Below are positions 1,220 through 38,878 of a stretch of 44,966 nucleotides of DNA, in pieces; positions within the stretch are counted from its first letter, which is position 1; every line of letters begins with the position of its first letter. Position numbers and translations under genes: made by a program. Below the pieces are notes generated by a model, which ran no database searches, was not told where the DNA came from, and saw nothing but the letters and a program-made list of their open reading frames with translations. Source of the stretch: a bacterium (GTDB taxonomy: Bacteria; Deinococcota; Deinococci; Deinococcales; Deinococcaceae); assembly GCA_021810505.1 (NCBI GenBank), contig JAJZIR010000019.1, positions 1 through 44,966 of the forward strand, written 5' to 3'.

Positions 1220-2869
1220 ATGAAACGACAAGGGATATTGGGACTCGCCGTTCTTGCCGGGTTAGCCGCGGCGCCAGCTCTGGCCCAGACCGTCAATTAC
1301 GCGCTGCCCCCGCAGACGCGGATCACCTCGCTGCTGCCGATCGCGGCGGCCAACATCGAGAGCCTCTACGATGGCCAAGCCGCCGAGCTGCTGTACCGGC
1401 CTCTCCTGTGGGTCGACCACAACATCCAGATTGACTACGCCCGCTCCATCGCCAGCTCGGTGACCACCAAGGACGGCCAGCACTACTTCGTCAAGCTGAA
1501 CCCCAAGTGGCACTGGTCCAACGGCCAGCCGGTCACCGCCCAGGACGTAGCTTTCTCGTTCGACCTGATCAAGGGTATCTCGGCCAAGAACGCCGCTACC
1601 TACTACGCCTGGGGCATCGGCGGGATCCCCAACAACGTGGTCTCGGTCAAGGTGCTCAGCGCGCACGAGCTGGAGTTCGTCACCGACCACCCCTACAGCA
1701 AGCAGTGGTTCGAGCTGAACGGCCTGGCCCAGCTCTTCCCGCTGCCTAAGGCGTCCTGGGACAAGTACCCCGGCCACCCCTACAAGACCCTGCTCTACCT
1801 GCAGAAGAACCAGGCCAACATCCCCTTCTTCAAGAGCAGCCCGGTCGACGGCCCCTTCATGGTCAGCCGCTTCGTCAACAACCAGAGCTACAGCTTCGTC
1901 CCCAACCCGCACTACGACGGCCACAAGCCCAGCTACAGCAAGCTGGTGCTGCGCTACTTCACCAGCTCGGACGCCATCTTCAACGCCATGCGGGTCGGCC
2001 AGCTCCAGGTCGGCATCCTACCCTTCCACCTCTACGCCGAGCGCAGCCAGCTCAGCGCCTACACCTTCCACTCCGAGCCGCAGTGGTCGATCAACTACAT
2101 CTACGTCAACTTCGCCAACCCCAAGGATCCGGCCTTAAAGAGCCTGACCGTGCGCAAAGCCCTGCAGATGGCGGTCGATCAGCCGGCCATGCTCAAGGTG
2201 ATCGTGAACGGCCAGGGTGTCGATCAGTACGGCCCGGTGCCCTACCAGCCCTCCACTTACCTGAGCCCGCTGCTGAAGAGCGGCTACGTCCCCTACGCCT
2301 ACGATCCGGCGGCTGGCAAGGCCCTGCTGGAGAAGGCCGGCTGGCACATGGTGAACGGCGTGATGCAGAAAGGCGGTATGCGCCTGGCCTTCAACCTGCA
2401 GTACAGCGCCGGCCAGGCCATCTTCGAGCGCGAGACCCAGCTGATCCAGCAGGCCGCCGCCAAGGAGGGGATCAAGCTCACCCTGGCTCCCAAGCCTTTC
2501 GATACCCTGATCGGCGAGCTGGGCAGCCCCAAGACCTGGAGCCTGATCGACTACGGCGGTTGGATCTACCAACCCGACTACTACCCCACCGGCTTCGGGC
2601 TGTTCAACAGCCAGGGCGGCTCCAACCAGCAGGGCTACTCCAATCCGGTGATGAACCGCGCCACGGTCAACACCCACTCCTTCTACGCCACCAGGCAGCA
2701 GTCGCTCACCGCCCTGTTCGACTACGAGAACTACACCGCCCTGCAGCTGCCGCTGATCTGGCTGCCCGGGACCAACCAGCTCCAGGAGATCTCCAAGCAG
2801 CTCAGCGGGGTCTTCGCCCACTACAACCCCACCGGCAATTGGTCTCCGCAATACTGGCAGTTCAAGTGA
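1220..2869 (+). CDS. ABC transporter substrate-binding protein, family 5 (oligopeptide/dipeptide type), copy 1
   Basis: A 549-residue secreted binding protein of the SBP_bac_5 family, which captures peptides or similar solutes outside the inner membrane. ATG at 1220 has a good AAGGAGAGG site 5 bases upstream. The signal peptide runs to an ALA-Q cleavage site at about residue 23 and has no lipobox cysteine. Family landmarks include WHWSNGQPVTAQDVAFSFDL around residue 95, YVNFANP, and SLTVRKALQMAVDQPAML around residue 310. The length fits the family (500-600). It is the first gene of a unit with a close paralogue and two permeases. The specific ligand cannot be told from sequence. Confidence 0.92.
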   Translation: MKRQGILGLAVLAGLAAAPALAQTVNYALPPQTRITSLLPIAAANIESLYDGQAAELLYRPLLWVDHNIQIDYARSIASSVTTKDGQHYFVKLNPKWHWSNGQPVTAQDVAFSFDLIKGISAKNAATYYAWGIGGIPNNVVSVKVLSAHELEFVTDHPYSKQWFELNGLAQLFPLPKASWDKYPGHPYKTLLYLQKNQANIPFFKSSPVDGPFMVSRFVNNQSYSFVPNPHYDGHKPSYSKLVLRYFTSSDAIFNAMRVGQLQVGILPFHLYAERSQLSAYTFHSEPQWSINYIYVNFANPKDPALKSLTVRKALQMAVDQPAMLKVIVNGQGVDQYGPVPYQPSTYLSPLLKSGYVPYAYDPAAGKALLEKAGWHMVNGVMQKGGMRLAFNLQYSAGQAIFERETQLIQQAAAKEGIKLTLAPKPFDTLIGELGSPKTWSLIDYGGWIYQPDYYPTGFGLFNSQGGSNQQGYSNPVMNRATVNTHSFYATRQQSLTALFDYENYTALQLPLIWLPGTNQLQEISKQLSGVFAHYNPTGNWSPQYWQFK

Positions 2870-2909
2870 GCGCGCTACACTACGCTCAAGTGAGCGCGCT
2901 ACACTACGC
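2862..2909 (+). repeat. Perfect 24-bp tandem duplication across the stop codon
   Basis: Two identical head-to-tail 24-base units, 2862-2885 and 2886-2909. The first contains the TGA of the upstream binding-protein gene. Each unit has the palindrome AGCGCGCT flanked by GTG and CAC. The duplication lengthens the spacer to the second binding-protein gene and places a second in-frame TGA behind the first. Confidence 0.85.
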
Positions 2910-2946
2910 CTGAGACAACGTCCTCTTGTCCGAAAGGAGATCTCTG

Positions 2947-4632
2947 ATGAAACTACCCCGCCTCTCCCTCCTCACCCTAGCCGGCGCCCTCGCCGCCACC
3001 GGCCTCAGCTTCGCTGCCGGCTCCACCATCACCACCCAGCTCACCGCCGCCAAGATCGACTACCTGTTTCCGCTGACCACCACCACCAGCAACACGCTCT
3101 ACAACGCCCAGGCCATCGGCTACATGTACAAGGGGCTGTTCCACGTCGGCAACAACGGCGCCATCGACTACGCCAGGTCGGTGGCCTCCTCGATCACCAG
3201 CTCGGACGGCGGTCTGCTCTACACCATCAAGCTGAACCCCAAGTGGCACTGGTCCACCGGCCAGCCGGTCACCGCGCAGGACGTGGTCTTCACCTGGAGC
3301 CTGATCAACGCCGACTGCAATAGGCCGAACGGCGCCGGCACCTACGCTGCCTGTGGCCAGGGCGGCATCGGCGCCCCGGGCAAGCCGCCCACCAAGACCA
3401 TCATCACCTCGGTGAAGGCGGTGGGGAAGTATGAGGTCCAGGTCCGTATCGACACCAAGACCAACCCGCTGTGGTTCGAGTACAACGGCCTGGGGCAGTT
3501 CGAGCCCCTGCCCAAGTTCTACTACGACAAGTTCCCCGGCCACCCGGCCAAGACCTACGCCTACTGGACCAGCCACGGCGGGGACGTCTCCCTGTTCACC
3601 CACGCCCCCATCGACGGCGCCTTCAGGGTGGTCAAGTTGGTGCAGGGCCAGGAGTACGATTTCGCCCGCAACAGCAAGTACAACGGCCACATGCCCAGCT
3701 ACCAGAACCTGGTGATCAAGTCCTTCACCAGCTCGGACGCCGAGTTCAACGCGCTCAAGGCCGGCGAGATCGACGTCGGCTTCGTGCCCACCCACCTCTA
3801 CGCCGAGCACAAGATCAGCGGCTACAAGTTCTTCACCACTCCGGTCTGGGGCTTTAACTACATCTACGTCAACTTCGCCAACCCGGCTGCTCCCTACCTG
3901 AAGAGCCTGACCGTGCGCAAGGCGCTGCAGATGGCCATCGACCAGCCGGCCATCGTCAAGGCCATCTTCCACGGCCTGGGCGCCCCGCAGTACGGGCCGA
4001 TCCCGCTGTTCCCCAGGACCCAGTACGTCAGCCCCAACATCTTGGCCGGCAATCCCTACCCCTACAATCCGGCCGAAGGCAAGAAGCTGCTGGAGCAGGC
4101 CGGCTGGACCATGCACAACGGGGTGATGACCAAGGGCAAGGAGAAGCTCGCCTTCACCATGCTCTATACCAGCGGTGTCACTGCCACCCAGCTGCAGGAC
4201 GAGCTGCTCCAGGCTGCGGCCGCCAAGGAGGGCATCAAGATCACCCTGGCTCCCGCGCCCTTCGACACCCTGATCGGCGACCTGAACAGCCCCAAGAAGT
4301 GGGTGCTGATGGACTACGGCGGCGTCTCCCAGGGCGCCTTCCCCTCCATGCACGGTATTTTCGCCTGCCACAGCGGCTTCAACCAGCAGGGTTACTGCGA
4401 CCCCACCGCCGACGCCTTGATGAAGGCGGCCTCGCAGCAGTACTACCCTTCCATCAAGCAGACCCTGCAGGCCTTCTACAACGCCGAGAACTACCTGTCG
4501 CTGCAGCTGCCGGTGCTCTACCAGCCCATCAACTTCGGTCTGCAGGAGTCCTCGCGCAAGGTGAAGGGCGTGCAGGCCAGCTTCCAGGCGCTGGCTGACC
4601 GCTTCGCCCCGCAGTACTGGAGCCTCCGCTAG
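2947..4632 (+). CDS. ABC transporter substrate-binding protein, family 5, copy 2
   Basis: A 561-residue paralogue of the preceding gene, with the same family 5 peptide-binding fold. ATG at 2947 is chosen because AAAGGAGA (2933-2940) lies 6 bases upstream; the TTG at 2926 sits before that site and would add seven residues ahead of a clean signal peptide ending LSFA-AGS. Long blocks match copy 1, for example KLNPKWHWS.GQPVTAQDV, SLTVRKALQMA.DQPA and APFDTLIG.L. Differences include an insertion with three Cys after the SLINAD segment and another Cys pair near FACHSGFNQQGYC. The pair looks like a tandem duplication followed by divergence, possibly widening ligand range for one pair of permeases. 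Confidence 0.92.
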   Translation: MKLPRLSLLTLAGALAATGLSFAAGSTITTQLTAAKIDYLFPLTTTTSNTLYNAQAIGYMYKGLFHVGNNGAIDYARSVASSITSSDGGLLYTIKLNPKWHWSTGQPVTAQDVVFTWSLINADCNRPNGAGTYAACGQGGIGAPGKPPTKTIITSVKAVGKYEVQVRIDTKTNPLWFEYNGLGQFEPLPKFYYDKFPGHPAKTYAYWTSHGGDVSLFTHAPIDGAFRVVKLVQGQEYDFARNSKYNGHMPSYQNLVIKSFTSSDAEFNALKAGEIDVGFVPTHLYAEHKISGYKFFTTPVWGFNYIYVNFANPAAPYLKSLTVRKALQMAIDQPAIVKAIFHGLGAPQYGPIPLFPRTQYVSPNILAGNPYPYNPAEGKKLLEQAGWTMHNGVMTKGKEKLAFTMLYTSGVTATQLQDELLQAAAAKEGIKITLAPAPFDTLIGDLNSPKKWVLMDYGGVSQGAFPSMHGIFACHSGFNQQGYCDPTADALMKAASQQYYPSIKQTLQAFYNAENYLSLQLPVLYQPINFGLQESSRKVKGVQASFQALADRFAPQYWSLR

Positions 4633-31105: not shown

Positions 31106-31253
31106 AGTGACTTTGTTTACATAAATCCCCACAGCGGTGTGGTTGAGTTGGCGTTTGGAAGTGATTCCATACGCGAGGCCGCTGGCACGGCTGTGCCGGA
31201 AGGCCGGTGCTCCTGCGCTGGGCTCACGACCGACCCAGAGGGGAGGGTGGGGT

Positions 31254-33899
31254 GTGCGATTCCGATCTAGAAACCTCCTAGCAGCGCTCGCTCTTTTGGC
31301 CACCGTAGCTCTGGTGGGTTGCGGCCAGGTGGCCCAGCCAGCCAAGCCACCGCCCAGCCCACCCCCCGCGGCGCCGAGCTCGCCCTTCCCCAGCCTGGCA
31401 GCTGGCAAGACCGCGGCCGACTTCGGCGCCAAGACGGTGTTGATCGTGCACTATTACCGCTACGACCACAGCTACAGCGGCTGGAACCTGTGGGTCTGGC
31501 CCAACGCCCCCCAGAGCCTGGCCGGCGCCTCCTACACCTTCACCCAGTCGGACAGCTTCGGCCCAGTCTCCGTAATCAAATTCCAGCAGAGCTACACCCA
31601 GCTCGGCTTCATCGTGCGCCTTTCGACCTCTTCAAACCCTTGGGCGGCCAAGGACGTCTCGGAGAACCGCTACGTCGGTATCCCCCATTCCGGCGTCGCC
31701 GAGATCTGGGTTTTAGAGGGCCAGCCCAGCTTCTACACCAGCCCACCCCCGGCCAGCGTGCAGCAGAACCGGGTGACCGCCGCTTTCCTCGACTCCTTCG
31801 ACCTGATCCACGCCAACCTCACCGAACCAGATCCCAGCCTGACGGCCCAGCAAGTCAGCCTGACCATCGCCGGGGTGCCTGCCCAGGTCACCCAGGTGTC
31901 TCAGAACGGCACCGACCCCAACGTCCTCGACATCACCCTGGCTCAGCCAGTCACGCCCGCGCAGATCGACCAGCCCATGCAGCTCTCGGTTGCCGGTTAC
32001 CAGCCCGCGATCGTCTACGCCAGAGACGTGCTCAACGCTTCCCAGTTCTTCTACCCCGGCCAGCTCGGTCCGATCTATAGCCCGGCTGAGACGATCTTCC
32101 GGCTCTGGTCGCCGCCTAGCTCAGCCGCGTCGGTGCTGCTCTACAGCAGCCCGGGGGCGACCACCCCCTACGCCAGCTACCCGATGGCCCAGCAGGGCCA
32201 GGGGGTCTGGCAGGTCAGCGTCGGCGGCAACCTGAACGGGGCCTACTACCTCTACCAGGTCACCCGTTACGGCAAGACGGTGACGACCCTGGATCCCTAC
32301 TCGCTGGCGGCCAGCGCCGATAACACCAAGTCGGCGGTGGTCGACTTGGCGGCCACCGATCCCCCCGGCTGGACCCAGGACGCCTACCAGGGCCCGGCGC
32401 ACCGCAGCGGCGTGGTCAGCTACGAGCTCGATGTCCGAGACTTCACGGTAGACCCCAGCGCCAACCTCCCGGTACCCGCGGACGCCGGGACCTATCTGGG
32501 CCTGTTGCAGACCGGCAGCAACGACGGCCAGCCGACCGGTCTGGGCCACCTGCTGCAGCTCGGCGTCAACATGGTCGAGCTGATGCCGGTGCAGGACTAC
32601 TGGAACGTCCCCTTCAGCGCCTACAATTGGGGCTACAACCCTCTGCTCTACAACGCGGTAGCTCCCTATTACTCCACCAATCCGAGTGACCCGGCGCAGA
32701 CCATCTCCGAGTTCAAGCAGATGGTGCTAGGCCTCCACCAGCAGGGTATCGGCGTGATCATGGACGTGGTCTACAACCACACCTATCAGGCTGGCCCGGG
32801 CTCTGGCTCCCCCTTCCGGGAGCTGGTGCCCTACTACTACCACCTCACCGACAACGCCGGAAACTTGATCGACGAGACCGGGACCGGGAATACCCTGGCT
32901 ACGGGAAACACCATGGTCCGGCAGTTCATCATCCAGTCGCTGCTCTACTGGGTAGATCAGTACCACATCAACGGCTTCCGCTTCGACCTGTTGGGGACCT
33001 TCGACCCCGCGACGGTGCACGCCATCGTCGCCGCCCTGACCGCGGCCGATCCGCAGATCGTCCTCTACGGGGAGCCCTGGACCGGTGCCGGCCCGGTCTC
33101 CTTCGGGCCCGGTGCCCAGCAGGGCCTCAAGCTGGGCGTCTTCAACGGGACCTTCCGCGACGCTATGGCCGGCTCGGTGTTCGACATCGCCGCCCCTGGC
33201 TACATCGAGGGGGCGCCGGGGAATTTAGCCAATATCCAGACCGGCGTGGTCGGCAGCCTGCAGGGCTACCCAGGTGTCAGCGGCGGCTTCACGCTGAATC
33301 CGGGTGAGAGCGTCAACTACGTGACCAGCCACGACAACTGCACCCTGTGGGACCGCATCGGCGCCGCTGAGCCGAGCTGGACCACTGCCCAGAAGATCAT
33401 CCCCCAGAAGTTCGCCGGGGCCATCGTGATGACCGCTCAGGGCCTGGCCTTCATGACCGAAGGCGTCGAATTCGCCCGCACCAAGGGAGGTAACTGCAAC
33501 AGCTACAACGCCGGGGACGCGGTGAACGAGCTGCGCTGGTCGCGAGTGGCCCAGTTCAGCGGCCTGAATGCTTACTGGGCCGGCCTGATCCACCTGCGCC
33601 TGGCCCACCCAGTCTTCCAGTTGGCCACCGGGGCCGCCGTCCAGCAGGACCTGAGCTTCTTATCCGGCCTCCCTGCCCACGTGCTCGGTTTTACGCTGAA
33701 TGGTCAAGCCGCCGGGGACAGCTGGAGTGAGGTATTGGTCTACTACAACGGATCTACCGCCCAGCAGGCGGTGACCCTACCCTCCGGCAGCTGGACCGAA
33801 GTGGTGGACGGCAGCCAGGCCGGAACCGCCCCGCTGGTGTCCGGCCTCAGCGGATCCTTCCAACTGAGCCCGCTCTCCGCCTTCGTGCTCTACCAGTGA
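31254..33899 (+). CDS. pulA: Type I pullulanase lipoprotein
   Basis: An 881-residue debranching enzyme that cuts alpha-1,6 bonds of pullulan and starch. GTG at 31254 follows GAGGGGAGGG and yields a lipobox (ALVGC, Cys23), then a Pro/Ser linker. A CBM41-like starch-binding domain (HYYRYDHSYSGWNLWVWPNA) follows at about 65-170, then an E-set domain and a CBM48-like part. The GH13 barrel shows the pullulanase signature YNWGYNP, region I DVVYNHTY, region II FRFDLLG with the nucleophile Asp, region III GEPWTG with the acid/base Glu, and region IV TSHDNCTLWD. Upstream DNA (31106-31253) has an AT-rich patch and a TGGAA/TTCCA repeat at 31156-31169, but no clear promoter. It heads a three-lipoprotein locus. 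Confidence 0.95.
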   Translation: MRFRSRNLLAALALLATVALVGCGQVAQPAKPPPSPPPAAPSSPFPSLAAGKTAADFGAKTVLIVHYYRYDHSYSGWNLWVWPNAPQSLAGASYTFTQSDSFGPVSVIKFQQSYTQLGFIVRLSTSSNPWAAKDVSENRYVGIPHSGVAEIWVLEGQPSFYTSPPPASVQQNRVTAAFLDSFDLIHANLTEPDPSLTAQQVSLTIAGVPAQVTQVSQNGTDPNVLDITLAQPVTPAQIDQPMQLSVAGYQPAIVYARDVLNASQFFYPGQLGPIYSPAETIFRLWSPPSSAASVLLYSSPGATTPYASYPMAQQGQGVWQVSVGGNLNGAYYLYQVTRYGKTVTTLDPYSLAASADNTKSAVVDLAATDPPGWTQDAYQGPAHRSGVVSYELDVRDFTVDPSANLPVPADAGTYLGLLQTGSNDGQPTGLGHLLQLGVNMVELMPVQDYWNVPFSAYNWGYNPLLYNAVAPYYSTNPSDPAQTISEFKQMVLGLHQQGIGVIMDVVYNHTYQAGPGSGSPFRELVPYYYHLTDNAGNLIDETGTGNTLATGNTMVRQFIIQSLLYWVDQYHINGFRFDLLGTFDPATVHAIVAALTAADPQIVLYGEPWTGAGPVSFGPGAQQGLKLGVFNGTFRDAMAGSVFDIAAPGYIEGAPGNLANIQTGVVGSLQGYPGVSGGFTLNPGESVNYVTSHDNCTLWDRIGAAEPSWTTAQKIIPQKFAGAIVMTAQGLAFMTEGVEFARTKGGNCNSYNAGDAVNELRWSRVAQFSGLNAYWAGLIHLRLAHPVFQLATGAAVQQDLSFLSGLPAHVLGFTLNGQAAGDSWSEVLVYYNGSTAQQAVTLPSGSWTEVVDGSQAGTAPLVSGLSGSFQLSPLSAFVLYQ

Positions 33900-33910
33900 G
33901 GAGGCTTGCC

Positions 33911-35275
33911 ATGCACCGCTTTGCCCTTCCGGTCACCCTGCTGGGCTGCTGCCTGCTGGTCGGTTGCAGCCAGCCGCTGAGTCCCTCCTCGCCGAGCTCG
34001 GCCACCTCCTCGGCGGTCACCCTGGCCTTCAATTTCGACAGCCCGGCTTTCTCCAGCTTGCCCAGCGGGATCCGCGCGGTGGCTCCCACCGTCCTGTCCG
34101 ATGGCCAGCCGCTGACCTTCCAGAACGGTCAAGTCTCTGCGGCAGGTACTGCGCTCCCGCCCCTGACCCCCTCCTCGCCCAGCGAGACGGTCCAGCTGCC
34201 ACCCGGGACCTACAGCTTCTCGGAGTCGGCTCAGAACGCCTCCGGGCTGGAGCTGGCCTGGGGGGAGGTCAGCCAGCAGATCCAGGCCGCGGCGACGGTA
34301 AGCCCTACCCTCTACCCGGTGATCGCCAAGGCGGTGCTCAGCCCCGCCCAGGGCCCCTACCAGACCGGCCAGGGGGTAAACCTCGCGCTTACGGTCTTCG
34401 ACGCGGCCGGCGGGGTGATCCCGCCGGTGGGCGGCAACTACGCCGTCACCTACAGCGCCACCCCCTCGGCCGCGGCCACCCTGGCCCCGCTGGGCTCCGG
34501 TCTCTCCGGGGCAGTCGCCAGCTTCAGCAGCCCGCAGAGCTACCTGGTCAGCGCGGCGGTGACCGGGACCGGAGCCAACCACCAGGCGGCCGACATCTTC
34601 TCGGCCCAGGCCGGTCCCTTGGCGGTCAGCGCCCCCCCGCTTCCCAAGCTGCCAGCCCTCCAGGGGACTTGGAATCCCAGCGGGACCGGAGTCAGCGAGT
34701 TCGCCGCTAGCAGCTGCACCACCCAGATCGAGCCGACCGGGTTCGGTTCGTCTAACTCCATCAGCCGAGTCTGCCTCGCGGGGGGTACCAGCCACCTCTA
34801 CCTAGCGGTCCAGTACGATCAGTCCGGCAACGACTTGATCAACTACCTCTCGGTCGGGAGCACCCCCTCCCAGGCCGCCGTCTCGCTCGCCGGCCTGAGC
34901 AACTACCCTACCGACACCACCTACCAGGCCGGCCTGGTCCCCCCTAGCTTCTTCCTGGTCTCGGGGGCGCACGCTGCCACGCCCGGGATCTATAAGATCT
35001 CGGGCACGACGGCGACGTTCCAGAGCGGCGCCTCGATCCAGGTCAACTCGGCGAACGGCGGCTACACCCTCAAGGCCGAGGTGCCCTATACCACCTTGGG
35101 GGTCTCTGCCGGGCAAGCGCTGTCCTTCGCCGGAGGGGTTTACGGCGGTGGGCAGAACTATGCTTACGGCGCGGGGACCATCTACCCCTACACCTCCAGC
35201 GACGGCAACGGCTTCGACAGCAGCAACAACTACGCGGTGACCTTGGCCAGCTTGCTGGGTTACTCGGTGCCCTGA
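33911..35275 (+). CDS. Lipoprotein with C-terminal carbohydrate-binding-like domain
   Basis: A 454-residue lipoprotein. ATG at 33911 follows GAGGAGG, which overlaps the pullulanase stop. The lipobox is LLVGC (Cys19). A Ser/Pro-rich N-terminal part of Ig-like strands (about 40-245, FTYSFSESAQ-like and YAVTYSATPS) is followed by a beta-sandwich from about 250 on. The SHLYLAVQYDQSGNDLINYL strand pair and a later YTLKAEVPYTTLGV with Tyr/Asn-rich end recall CBM9/DOMON-type sugar-binding domains. That match is by pattern only. Lying between two glucan hydrolases, it may hold starch at the surface. Not certain. Confidence 0.7.
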   Translation: MHRFALPVTLLGCCLLVGCSQPLSPSSPSSATSSAVTLAFNFDSPAFSSLPSGIRAVAPTVLSDGQPLTFQNGQVSAAGTALPPLTPSSPSETVQLPPGTYSFSESAQNASGLELAWGEVSQQIQAAATVSPTLYPVIAKAVLSPAQGPYQTGQGVNLALTVFDAAGGVIPPVGGNYAVTYSATPSAAATLAPLGSGLSGAVASFSSPQSYLVSAAVTGTGANHQAADIFSAQAGPLAVSAPPLPKLPALQGTWNPSGTGVSEFAASSCTTQIEPTGFGSSNSISRVCLAGGTSHLYLAVQYDQSGNDLINYLSVGSTPSQAAVSLAGLSNYPTDTTYQAGLVPPSFFLVSGAHAATPGIYKISGTTATFQSGASIQVNSANGGYTLKAEVPYTTLGVSAGQALSFAGGVYGGGQNYAYGAGTIYPYTSSDGNGFDSSNNYAVTLASLLGYSVP

Positions 35276-35328: not shown

Positions 35329-37077
35329 ATGCGCTCCTCTTCCCTGATACCCCTGGCCGCCCTGCTCCTGCTGGGACTGGTCGGCTGCGGCCAGCCCGCT
35401 GCCCCGGTGAACCCGCCCGCGGGCGGTTCCGCGGCGAACGGCGCGCCGGAACCGCTGGCAGCCGTCGACTGGCGGGCCGGCTCCATCTACTTCCTGATGA
35501 CCGACCGGTTCTATAACGGCAATCCAGCCAACGACAACGGCGGCCCTGGGGACAACCAGCCTGCCCAGACCGATAACCCCATGGCCTGGCAGGGCGGCGA
35601 CTTCCAGGGGGTCATCGACAAGATCAACGCCGGCTACTTCAATAAGTTGGGGGTGACGGCTATCTGGATGACCCCCGCCTACCTGCAGGGTCCACCCCAG
35701 CCCGGACCCAGCACCGATAATCCCCAGAACCTGCTCAATTACCCCTACCACGGCTACTGGCCCTGGAATTTCCAGTACCCCGATCCCCACTTCGGCCGCC
35801 CGGCGACCTTGCAGGCTCTGGTCCAGGACGCCCACCAGCACGGCCTGGCGGTGATCCTGGGGCAGATCGTCAACGACGCCGGCTACGGCTATCCCGCCTA
35901 TCAGCGGGAGCGACAACAGATCGCCTCCGGCCAGCTCACCCTGAGCAACAGCGCCCAGGCCCTGCAGACTTTCCAGTTCCACCACCGGGCGGCCAGCGGC
36001 CTCTGCGAGCCCTACAGCGGCGCCTACAACGCCAGGTTGGACTGCCCGCTGTCCAATCTGCCGGACTGGAACTCGGACAACCTGCAGGTGCAGCGCTACC
36101 TCGACCAGTCCACCTCCTACTGGCTCTCCACCTACGGCTTAGACGGTATCCGCTTGGACGCGGCCATGTACGTGCCGAACACTTTCTGGGCGCAGTACTT
36201 CAGCTACCTGCACGCCCAGGGCGAGCACCCCTTGGCTTTCGGCGAGGTCTTCAACGGCTCTCCCAGCTTCGTCGGCAGCTTCACCCAGCCCCAGGTCGGC
36301 TTCAGCAGCGCCGAGAACTATCCCCTCTACTTCGCCATCACCCAGTCTGGCCTAGTCCCTGGCCAATCCGCTTTTTACGGCTACAGCAACCTGGCGGCGG
36401 TCAACTACGCCGTCGAGCAGAACCTCAAGGCCGACGCCCACCCTAACTTGATGATCAACTTCATCGACGATCAGGACGTGCCCCGTTTCACCAGCTTGCT
36501 CAGCAACAACGGGGTTGCGCCCGGGCAGATCCTGCCCCGCTGGCAGATCGCCGAGCTGCTCAGCTACACCCTGCCCGGTATTCCGGTGATCTACTACGGC
36601 GACGAGGCCGGCATGACCGGGACCTATGACCCCTACCAGGCGGTCGCTTCCGGGGACCCTTCCAATAACGATCGCCAGCCGATGACCGTCTGGACCTCTG
36701 CCCAGCGCCAAGCGGCCGGCGTCCAGGATTACTACAGCTGGCTGCAGGATCTGAACGGCCTCAAGGCCAGCCAGGCTGCCCTCCAGACCGGGAGCTATGC
36801 GCCGCTGTTCGTCCCGAGCAGCTCGGATCCCAATCTGTTCGTCTACGCCCGCAGCAGCGGGAGCCAGACTCTGGACGTGCTGATCAACGCTACCGGGAAC
36901 GCGGTCACCCTGGATCAGCTCCCCGGTGAGGGCAACGGAATTCCAGAGACCGGTCTTCCCGCCGGCCCCACCACCGACCTGCTCGGCGGCAGCTCGCCTG
37001 TCACCGTGACCGCCAGCGGCTCCGGGACTGCGCTCAACGGCACCCTGCCAGCTTGGAGCGCTCTGGTCCTGAAGTGA
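35329..37077 (+). CDS. GH13 alpha-amylase-like lipoprotein with altered active site
   Basis: A 582-residue lipoprotein (LVGC, Cys20) with a complete GH13 barrel. ATG at 35329 follows GAGGTGGA. Catalytic residues are kept: Arg275/Asp277 (GIRLDAAMY), Glu306 (AFGEVFNG) and Asp383 (FIDDQD). The fold marker YHGYWPWNFQYPDPHFG is intact. Region I, normally DxxxNH, reads GQIVND (178-183), losing both Asp and His. The region II His is Tyr281 and the region IV His is Gln382. All three active-site His of ordinary amylases are therefore replaced. It could be a transglycosylase, a narrow-specificity hydrolase or a weak binding protein. It follows the CBM-like gene by 53 bases. Confidence 0.88.
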   Translation: MRSSSLIPLAALLLLGLVGCGQPAAPVNPPAGGSAANGAPEPLAAVDWRAGSIYFLMTDRFYNGNPANDNGGPGDNQPAQTDNPMAWQGGDFQGVIDKINAGYFNKLGVTAIWMTPAYLQGPPQPGPSTDNPQNLLNYPYHGYWPWNFQYPDPHFGRPATLQALVQDAHQHGLAVILGQIVNDAGYGYPAYQRERQQIASGQLTLSNSAQALQTFQFHHRAASGLCEPYSGAYNARLDCPLSNLPDWNSDNLQVQRYLDQSTSYWLSTYGLDGIRLDAAMYVPNTFWAQYFSYLHAQGEHPLAFGEVFNGSPSFVGSFTQPQVGFSSAENYPLYFAITQSGLVPGQSAFYGYSNLAAVNYAVEQNLKADAHPNLMINFIDDQDVPRFTSLLSNNGVAPGQILPRWQIAELLSYTLPGIPVIYYGDEAGMTGTYDPYQAVASGDPSNNDRQPMTVWTSAQRQAAGVQDYYSWLQDLNGLKASQAALQTGSYAPLFVPSSSDPNLFVYARSSGSQTLDVLINATGNAVTLDQLPGEGNGIPETGLPAGPTTDLLGGSSPVTVTASGSGTALNGTLPAWSALVLK

Positions 37078-37789: not shown

Positions 37790-38842
37790 TCAGGGAGTGA
37801 AGCTCTGGTAATCGGCGCTGAGTTCGAGGGTTTGCCCCAGCGCTACGTTGGTGGTCAGCGTCTGCTGAGAGCTGGTGGAGCCGAAAGAAGTTCCGCTGCT
37901 GCCGACTTGCTCGAGCACGACTTGGTAGTGTCCGCTGGCGCCTTGCGCGTAGGTGGTGGCAGCCAGGGTGTAGGTGCCGGGGAGGAGCGCCAGGCCGACC
38001 ACGCTCCCGTTGCTGGCAGCGCTGTAGACCGGTAGCGAGCCGCCCTGTTCGGTCAAGCTGACCGTGGGATAGCTGACCGGGTTGCTGGGGATTCCGCTGA
38101 TTTCCAGGTCGAATCCGGCGACTGGGTCGACCCGCACTGCCAGTTCCTGCTGGGCGCTCGGGTACCCGCCGTTGCCCAGCGCGCGCAGCGTGAAGCGGTA
38201 GGTGGCGGCGGCTTGGGCGATGTCGACCGGCAGCTGGATAGTCGCTGAGCTCGCGCTGCTGGAGAGGTTCTGGACCTGGGGCGAAGCGCCGCCTGGCGCC
38301 TGTTCGGTCAATTGGTACCCGGAAGCGTTGCTGGCCTGCCAGCTCAGCGTCACCGGAACGCTGGCGTTCCCGGCCTGCTCGGAGGCGGTCACCCGGCTCA
38401 GCGAGTCGGTCAAACTGGCGACTGCTGGGCCAGGCCCCACGGTGACGGTCAGCGACTTGCTGATTGCCGGCCCCCCGCCCGGGCTGAAGCCGGTCAGGAT
38501 GATGGTGTACACCACGTCCTGAGCGGAGCTGCTGGCCGGCAAGGTGAGGGTGGTGGACTGCTGCGAGACCGGCAGCTCGCCGCTAGGCAGGCCCTCCACC
38601 CCCTCGGATGGGGAAACGCTCAGCGCGTAGCCGGTGAGTGCCGTCCCCTGCCAGTGCAAGCTGACTTGTCCCGGCTGGTCCAGGGCGCCGATGACCAGGC
38701 CACCCTGGACTTGGGTCGCACCGGACAGATCGGCGCGGAAGGAGGTGACCTGGCTGGCCGGGATCCCAGAGAGGCCGCAGCCCACCAGGGCAAACAAGCT
38801 GGCGCCGCAGAGTGCCGCTAACTGTACTGACCGAGCCCGCAT
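37790..38842 (-). CDS. Lipoprotein with Ig/fibronectin-like repeats, function unknown
   Basis: A 350-residue lipoprotein. ATG at 38842 follows GAGGGGGTGGT; an in-frame start at 38869 would lie before that site. Lipobox LVGC (Cys21). Two repeated beta-sandwich modules are suggested by PVTLSWQASNASGYQLTEQA and VSLHWQGTALTGYALSVSPS, which share the W-x(n)-GY-L pattern of fibronectin-type or PKD-like folds. The final third is Ser/Thr/Tyr-rich. No catalytic motif. It lies between ffh and the DinB-like gene and has its own promoter. A surface-exposed structural or binding role is possible. Confidence 0.75.
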   Translation of the reverse strand: MRARSVQLAALCGASLFALVGCGLSGIPASQVTSFRADLSGATQVQGGLVIGALDQPGQVSLHWQGTALTGYALSVSPSEGVEGLPSGELPVSQQSTTLTLPASSSAQDVVYTIILTGFSPGGGPAISKSLTVTVGPGPAVASLTDSLSRVTASEQAGNASVPVTLSWQASNASGYQLTEQAPGGASPQVQNLSSSASSATIQLPVDIAQAAATYRFTLRALGNGGYPSAQQELAVRVDPVAGFDLEISGIPSNPVSYPTVSLTEQGGSLPVYSAASNGSVVGLALLPGTYTLAATTYAQGASGHYQVVLEQVGSSGTSFGSTSSQQTLTTNVALGQTLELSADYQSFTP

Positions 38843-38878
38843 ACCACCCCCTCGAAGCCCTACCAACACTTTGGGATG

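Follow-up and report, generated by a model that had tools for sequence, protein, structure and literature searches.

The window, which is the whole stretch of 44,966 nucleotides analysed here, carries a gene for a 582-aa GH13 lipoprotein at 35329..37077 on the forward strand. It is an open frame from ATG, and residues 55-480 of its product match PF00128 (E 2e-43). A lipobox, LVGC (residues 17-20; 35377..35388, +), was read from the sequence and predicts a lipid anchor with a surface or periplasmic location. A signal with a box of the LAGC/VGC type is also found at the start of the Pseudomonadota homologues described below. Upstream in the same cluster is a type I pullulanase lipoprotein (31137..33899, +) with PUD, CBM48 and GH13 domains. 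It scores 577.7 bits against TIGR02104 (cut-off 504.5) and keeps the canonical YNHT and SHDN motifs, so the initial annotation was right to describe a normal pullulanase beside the GH13 gene. Between the two is a lipoprotein without a known family (33896..35275, +). Its frame shares 4 bases with the end of the pullulanase gene, and a gap of 53 bases separates it from the start of the GH13 gene, of which it is a probable operon partner. Searches of Pfam, NCBIfam and PDB returned no match to this lipoprotein, which is possibly a glucan-binding partner. Only 5.4% of its residues are charged. To judge from their sequences, all three products look like surface lipoproteins. A downstream scan for terminators and promoters found nothing.

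GH13 is among the best-studied enzyme families, and the Asp and His of region I and the His of region IV are treated as near-universal for sugar binding at the cleavage site. The two His residues hold glucose at subsite -1 and aid transition-state stabilisation, while the chemistry is done by the catalytic triad. The region I Asp is said, in the title of a paper (Leemhuis 2003), to be fully conserved in the alpha-amylase family and crucial for the site architecture and activity of CGTase. The motifs of the window protein were assigned by alignment with its closest PDB relatives by sequence, which are Anoxybacillus and Geobacillus alpha-amylases and CGTases, and with ~85 other GH13 loci. The conserved YHGYW (residues 140-144; 35746..35760, +) includes H141 and Y143. 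Region I reads GQIVND (178-183; 35860..35877, +), where Gly178 replaces Asp, Asp183 replaces His, and Asn182, at a Ca ligand position, is kept. Region II, DGIRLDAAMYVP (272-283; 36142..36177, +), keeps R275 and the nucleophile D277, and the canonical Lys-His pair is M280-Y281. Region III, FGEVF (304-308; 36238..36252, +), contains the acid/base E306. Region IV, NFIDDQD (377-383; 36457..36477, +), has Gln382 in place of His and keeps Asp383. The catalytic residues, YHGYW and the unusual motifs of regions I and IV are thus where the initial annotation had placed them. Its title counted His residues only; these changes are real, but the loss of the region I Asp, visible in the motif that it quoted, was passed over. 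In an alignment of 40 sequences, conservation reaches at least 90% at each of D178, H183 and H382. Two proteins differ at all three positions together: the window protein and L007, from a Pseudomonadota metagenome-assembled genome (MAG; contig JAKAZT010000027.1).

L007 is 70% identical to the window protein and carries GQIVND and DNQD. In total, eight further copies were found, 63-71% identical to the window protein and all from one Pseudomonadota genus. The sample of 198 genomes from the family of L007 gave eight genomes with copies, including the MAG of L007, all in that genus; among 369 genomes of the Pseudomonadota class, the only one with a copy was G111. In a scan of named genomes, L007 was the only member among the matches listed. 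No locus in plasmid records exceeded 60% identity, and the best two, L096 and L097, are canonical. Gly178, Gln179, Asp183 and Gln382 are present in all nine copies. The same pattern in nine independent genomes rules out sequencing or assembly error and chance. Region II behaves differently. Position 281 is Tyr in eight copies and His in L106. At position 280, where canonical relatives have Lys, the copies carry M, Q, S or T, and the canonical Lys-His has become M-Y, S-Y, T-Y or Q-H across the clade. The same His position is Tyr or Glu in some other GH13 proteins of the ~85-locus alignment. The region II His is therefore outside the clade signature. The claim that all three His are lost holds for the window protein, where His183, His382 and the His at 281 are all replaced, but not as a signature of the clade.

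The remaining active site is strictly conserved. Y143, N182, D246, R275, D277, E306, D383, D434 and R449 are invariant in the nine copies, against a background of just 242 invariant columns out of 537 in the clade. Pairs with dS below 0.8 have dN/dS ratios of 0.12-0.42 (Nei-Gojobori); in more distant pairs dS is saturated and the lower ratios are not trustworthy. Decay of the gene is ruled out by the nine genomes and by dN/dS, and the earlier view of an otherwise intact protein agrees with this purifying selection and with the invariance of all seven other active-site residues examined for it (Y143, R275, D277, E306, D383, D434 and R449). Five canonical relatives share 126 invariant columns; the clade retains 67 of these, varies at 46 and has a different residue fixed at 13. 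The 13 include D178, H183 and H382, with a hypergeometric P of ~0.0009 for the three named columns, or P = 0.10 when all 59 changed columns are counted.

The AlphaFold2 model, built with 40 sequences, has a mean pLDDT of 77 and a pTM of 0.83 and shows the GH13 fold with a confident barrel. Residues 1-44, 77-81, 127-137, most of 219-241 and 430-441 are poorly modelled; of these, 127-137 and 219-241 lie in domain B and help to form the cleft. The (beta/alpha)8 barrel with domains A, B and C, expected of GH13, is indicated by PF00128, by the model and by the top 50 PDB matches, which are all GH13. The Foldseek matches are GH13 amylases, CGTases and neopullulanases (best E 1.6e-32), and the top ones are the Anoxybacillus and Geobacillus alpha-amylases, with TM-scores of 0.83-0.84 normalised by target. 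No shifted His was seen that could substitute for those missing: the alignment is gap-free across the motifs, and the model places strand beta-3 (174-179) with high confidence where it is expected. The other conserved His residues of the clade are H141 and H169, which are family-wide, or lie in domain B (FHH, 217-219). In the Anoxybacillus structure, Ca1 is coordinated by the side chains of conserved Asn and Asp residues and by main-chain oxygens, one of which belongs to a His (PMC4791539). The side-chain ligands appear to be kept in the window protein as N182 and D246. If so, as the alignment suggests, a Tyr at the His position of region II would be tolerable.

All nine copies carry the Asp nucleophile, Glu acid/base, Asp stabiliser and region II Arg of GH13 (D277, E306, D383 and R275). 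The family-typical endings NH in region I and NHD in region IV are absent from all nine, which have Asp183 and Gln382. These endings are typical of most GH13 subfamilies (PMC11239784). Since they are typical and not universal, the window protein stays in GH13. The canonical secreted GH13 proteins of Deinococcota (L006, L087, L088, L096 and L097, some from Deinococcus) are ~32-35% identical over the whole catalytic part. They share with the clade LPD in region V, two conserved Cys and the triad, but in all five, regions I, II and IV read D...NH, K-H and DNHD, respectively. The Anoxybacillus ASKA, Geobacillus GTA and BaqA enzymes, the top PDB matches by sequence and fold, also share LPD in region V with the clade, but have canonical NH and NHD. 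Region V of their subfamily is defined by LPDIx (PMC4791539). The window protein has LPDWN and the other eight copies LPDFN or LPDFD. A single W265 is present in 249-271, in contrast to the Trp pair of that subfamily between regions V and II. The subfamily is further defined by an extended C-terminal region in which five aromatic residues are conserved.

The Agt/AmyD proteins, fungal GPI-anchored 4-alpha-glucanotransferases, resemble the window protein in their surface anchor, intact triad and replaced region I His. This His is Asn in Agt/AmyD and Asp183 in all nine copies, and the likeness is a functional analogy only. The fungal proteins are related to Taka-amylase. The accessible parts of the Agt/AmyD reports describe very low hydrolysis and marked transglycosylation (PMC10512346, PMC10512252) and report no loss of the region I Asp or the region IV His. 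The BmaN1 group of Bacillus amylases is likewise a GH13 clade in which positions kept elsewhere in the family are replaced, and it is reported to be active. In this group, however, the nucleophile position is Lys and the stabilising Asp is His, whereas the clade keeps D277 and D383. In GlgE and in GH70 and GH77 enzymes, all of them transferases, the region I His is replaced and the region IV His-Asp is kept. By its fold and triad the clade is placed in GH13, and by their defining residues it falls outside the BaqA/ASKA/GTA, Agt and BmaN1 groups. As far as the accessible parts of the sources go, the nearest described cases are Agt/AmyD, with His to Asn in region I, and BmaN1, with different residues changed. 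The Gly/Asp/Gln pattern was not found as the standard of a described GH13 subfamily in the open-access literature.

In the tree, the nine copies form one clade (support 100/100). The window copy is nested among Pseudomonadota copies, with L106 outside at 99/98. This nesting indicates gene transfer between phyla, and the likely direction, read against a long outgroup branch, is from Pseudomonadota to the lineage of the window. Mis-binning is unlikely because the gene, with a GC content of 65.5%, fits the 67.2% of the window, and because orthologues of nearby genes such as that for the pullulanase occur in Deinococcota. A lipoprotein gene on the reverse strand of the window (37790..38869, -) encodes two copies of a ~85-aa module (best pair E 6e-11). 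The same module is fused to the N-terminus of the GH13 protein in the Pseudomonadota orthologues, and it may have been split from, or joined to, the enzyme around the time of transfer. In two Pseudomonadota loci, read by eye, the gene is solitary, outside starch clusters and amid housekeeping or metal-resistance-like genes. The different chromosomal places of orthologues within one genus suggest a mobile history. L112 and L118 (G210 and G111) have plsY-birA-coaX surroundings, and L115 (G155) has peptidase and copper-resistance-like genes nearby.

The clade is depleted in charged residues. D+E+K+R make up 8.7-11.0% of the nine copies vs 14.2-23.6% of canonical relatives, and K+R 1.7-3.5% vs 6.4-10.2%. 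The window pullulanase has 9.9% charged residues vs 19.6-22.1% in five orthologues. Such depletion in the clade and in the pullulanase is as expected of acid-exposed proteins. Few positive charges are a described trait of acid-stable amylases, and a B. subtilis amylase engineered to carry Asp for His in its catalytic domain became more stable in acid and more efficient at low pH (PMC6172347). Acid mine drainage is among the habitats in which Deinococcota MAGs occur (PMC9734747). The window genome encodes a second secreted GH13 (L119, G000:C7:89557-91695; also L101:4537-6696), which has DFVPEDTGL in region I. Nine orthologues with a readable motif, ~48-50% identical, have DFVPNHTGL. This protein has thus changed His to Asp, and Asn to Glu, independently, and it keeps the region IV His. 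Its charged residues are 15.8% vs 22.4-24.0% in the orthologues. By these alignments, two secreted GH13 proteins of the window genome have each made the region I His-to-Asp change. Another secreted GH13 of the Pseudomonadota genus, with 14-16% charged residues, keeps FNHT and THD. Since this protein and the charge-depleted pullulanase keep their His, acid exposure does not force the change.

The strict conservation of the triad makes it most likely that the window protein is active on alpha-glucan as a retaining enzyme; we consider activity itself probable, and an alpha-1,4-glucan substrate rather likely. The reading that we prefer, to which we give an even chance as a whole, is a secreted, retaining GH13 enzyme on a lipid anchor, in which subsite -1 has been rebuilt. 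It would act on starch, glycogen and maltodextrins beside the pullulanase, by standard chemistry with Asp277 as nucleophile, Glu306 as acid/base and Asp383 as stabiliser. In subsite -1, Gly178, Asp183 and Gln382 would take the places of Asp, His and His. Asp183 and Gln382 could still form hydrogen bonds with sugar hydroxyls and, unlike His, would add no positive charge in acid. The new residues may slow hydrolysis and, with less than an even chance, favour glycosyl transfer to another sugar. The weak hydrolysis and transglycosylation of Agt/AmyD, as far as those sources describe them, make such a bias a reasonable guess, and it is put forward tentatively on this analogy. Activity could be very low, given that the region I Asp is reportedly crucial in CGTase.

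The initial annotation favoured altered specificity, which is possible. The strong signature of acid exposure and the region I His-to-Asp change in the second secreted GH13 mean that adaptation to low pH rivals, or accompanies, such a change; low pH as one driver of the substitutions has, on the sequences, slightly less than an even chance. Acid adaptation could also be the whole story, with ordinary alpha-amylase specificity and the subsite -1 His removed since protonated His would be harmful at pH 2-3. Charge depletion in the clade and other secreted proteins of the window, the independent NH to ED step in the same genome, the B. subtilis engineering and the acid mine drainage MAGs all agree with this explanation. 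The adjacent pullulanase retains both His, however, the second GH13 retains its region IV His, and charge gives no account of the change from Asp178 to Gly. As a sole cause, acid is considered unlikely.

The loss of three of the most conserved GH13 residues, one of them reportedly crucial in CGTase, would also fit a glycan-binding pseudoenzyme that cleaves nothing and captures surface alpha-glucan for the pullulanase and uptake. In a binding protein D277 and E306 would be expected to drift, but they and the further active-site residues are invariant in nine copies at 63-71% identity to the window protein, and we regard a pseudoenzyme as quite improbable. Still less probable is a substrate other than plain alpha-1,4-glucan, such as an exopolysaccharide or a mixed alpha-glucan. 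The choice would then be made by the new residues at -1 and by M280-Y281, which replaces the Lys-His pair on the acceptor side. The replacement of Lys-His at 280-281 and the solitary orthologues away from starch clusters point in this direction, but the window copy is clustered with a pullulanase and the closest structures are starch enzymes.

The preferred reading of an active enzyme with a rebuilt subsite -1 can be extended, with clearly less than an even chance, to a new GH13 subfamily of acid-exposed bacteria. In such a subfamily Asp/His/His would have become Gly/Asp/Gln and activity would be kept by another hold on the sugar, with the second GH13 of the genome having arrived at His-to-Asp on its own. 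A clade that crosses phyla, keeps its catalytic acids and has three near-universal positions fixed for other residues is a natural test of the role of those residues. It is also a candidate source of starch enzymes for strong acid or for transfer.

The window contig also carries an SlpA S-layer gene (PF21620). This gene and the Deinococcus records among the canonical relatives suggest a Deinococcota host, in a phylum with 111 species in the genome collection. At 1220-4632 of the window, tandem family-5 solute-binding proteins, both with a predicted pI above 9, lie ahead of an Opp/Dpp-type permease pair.
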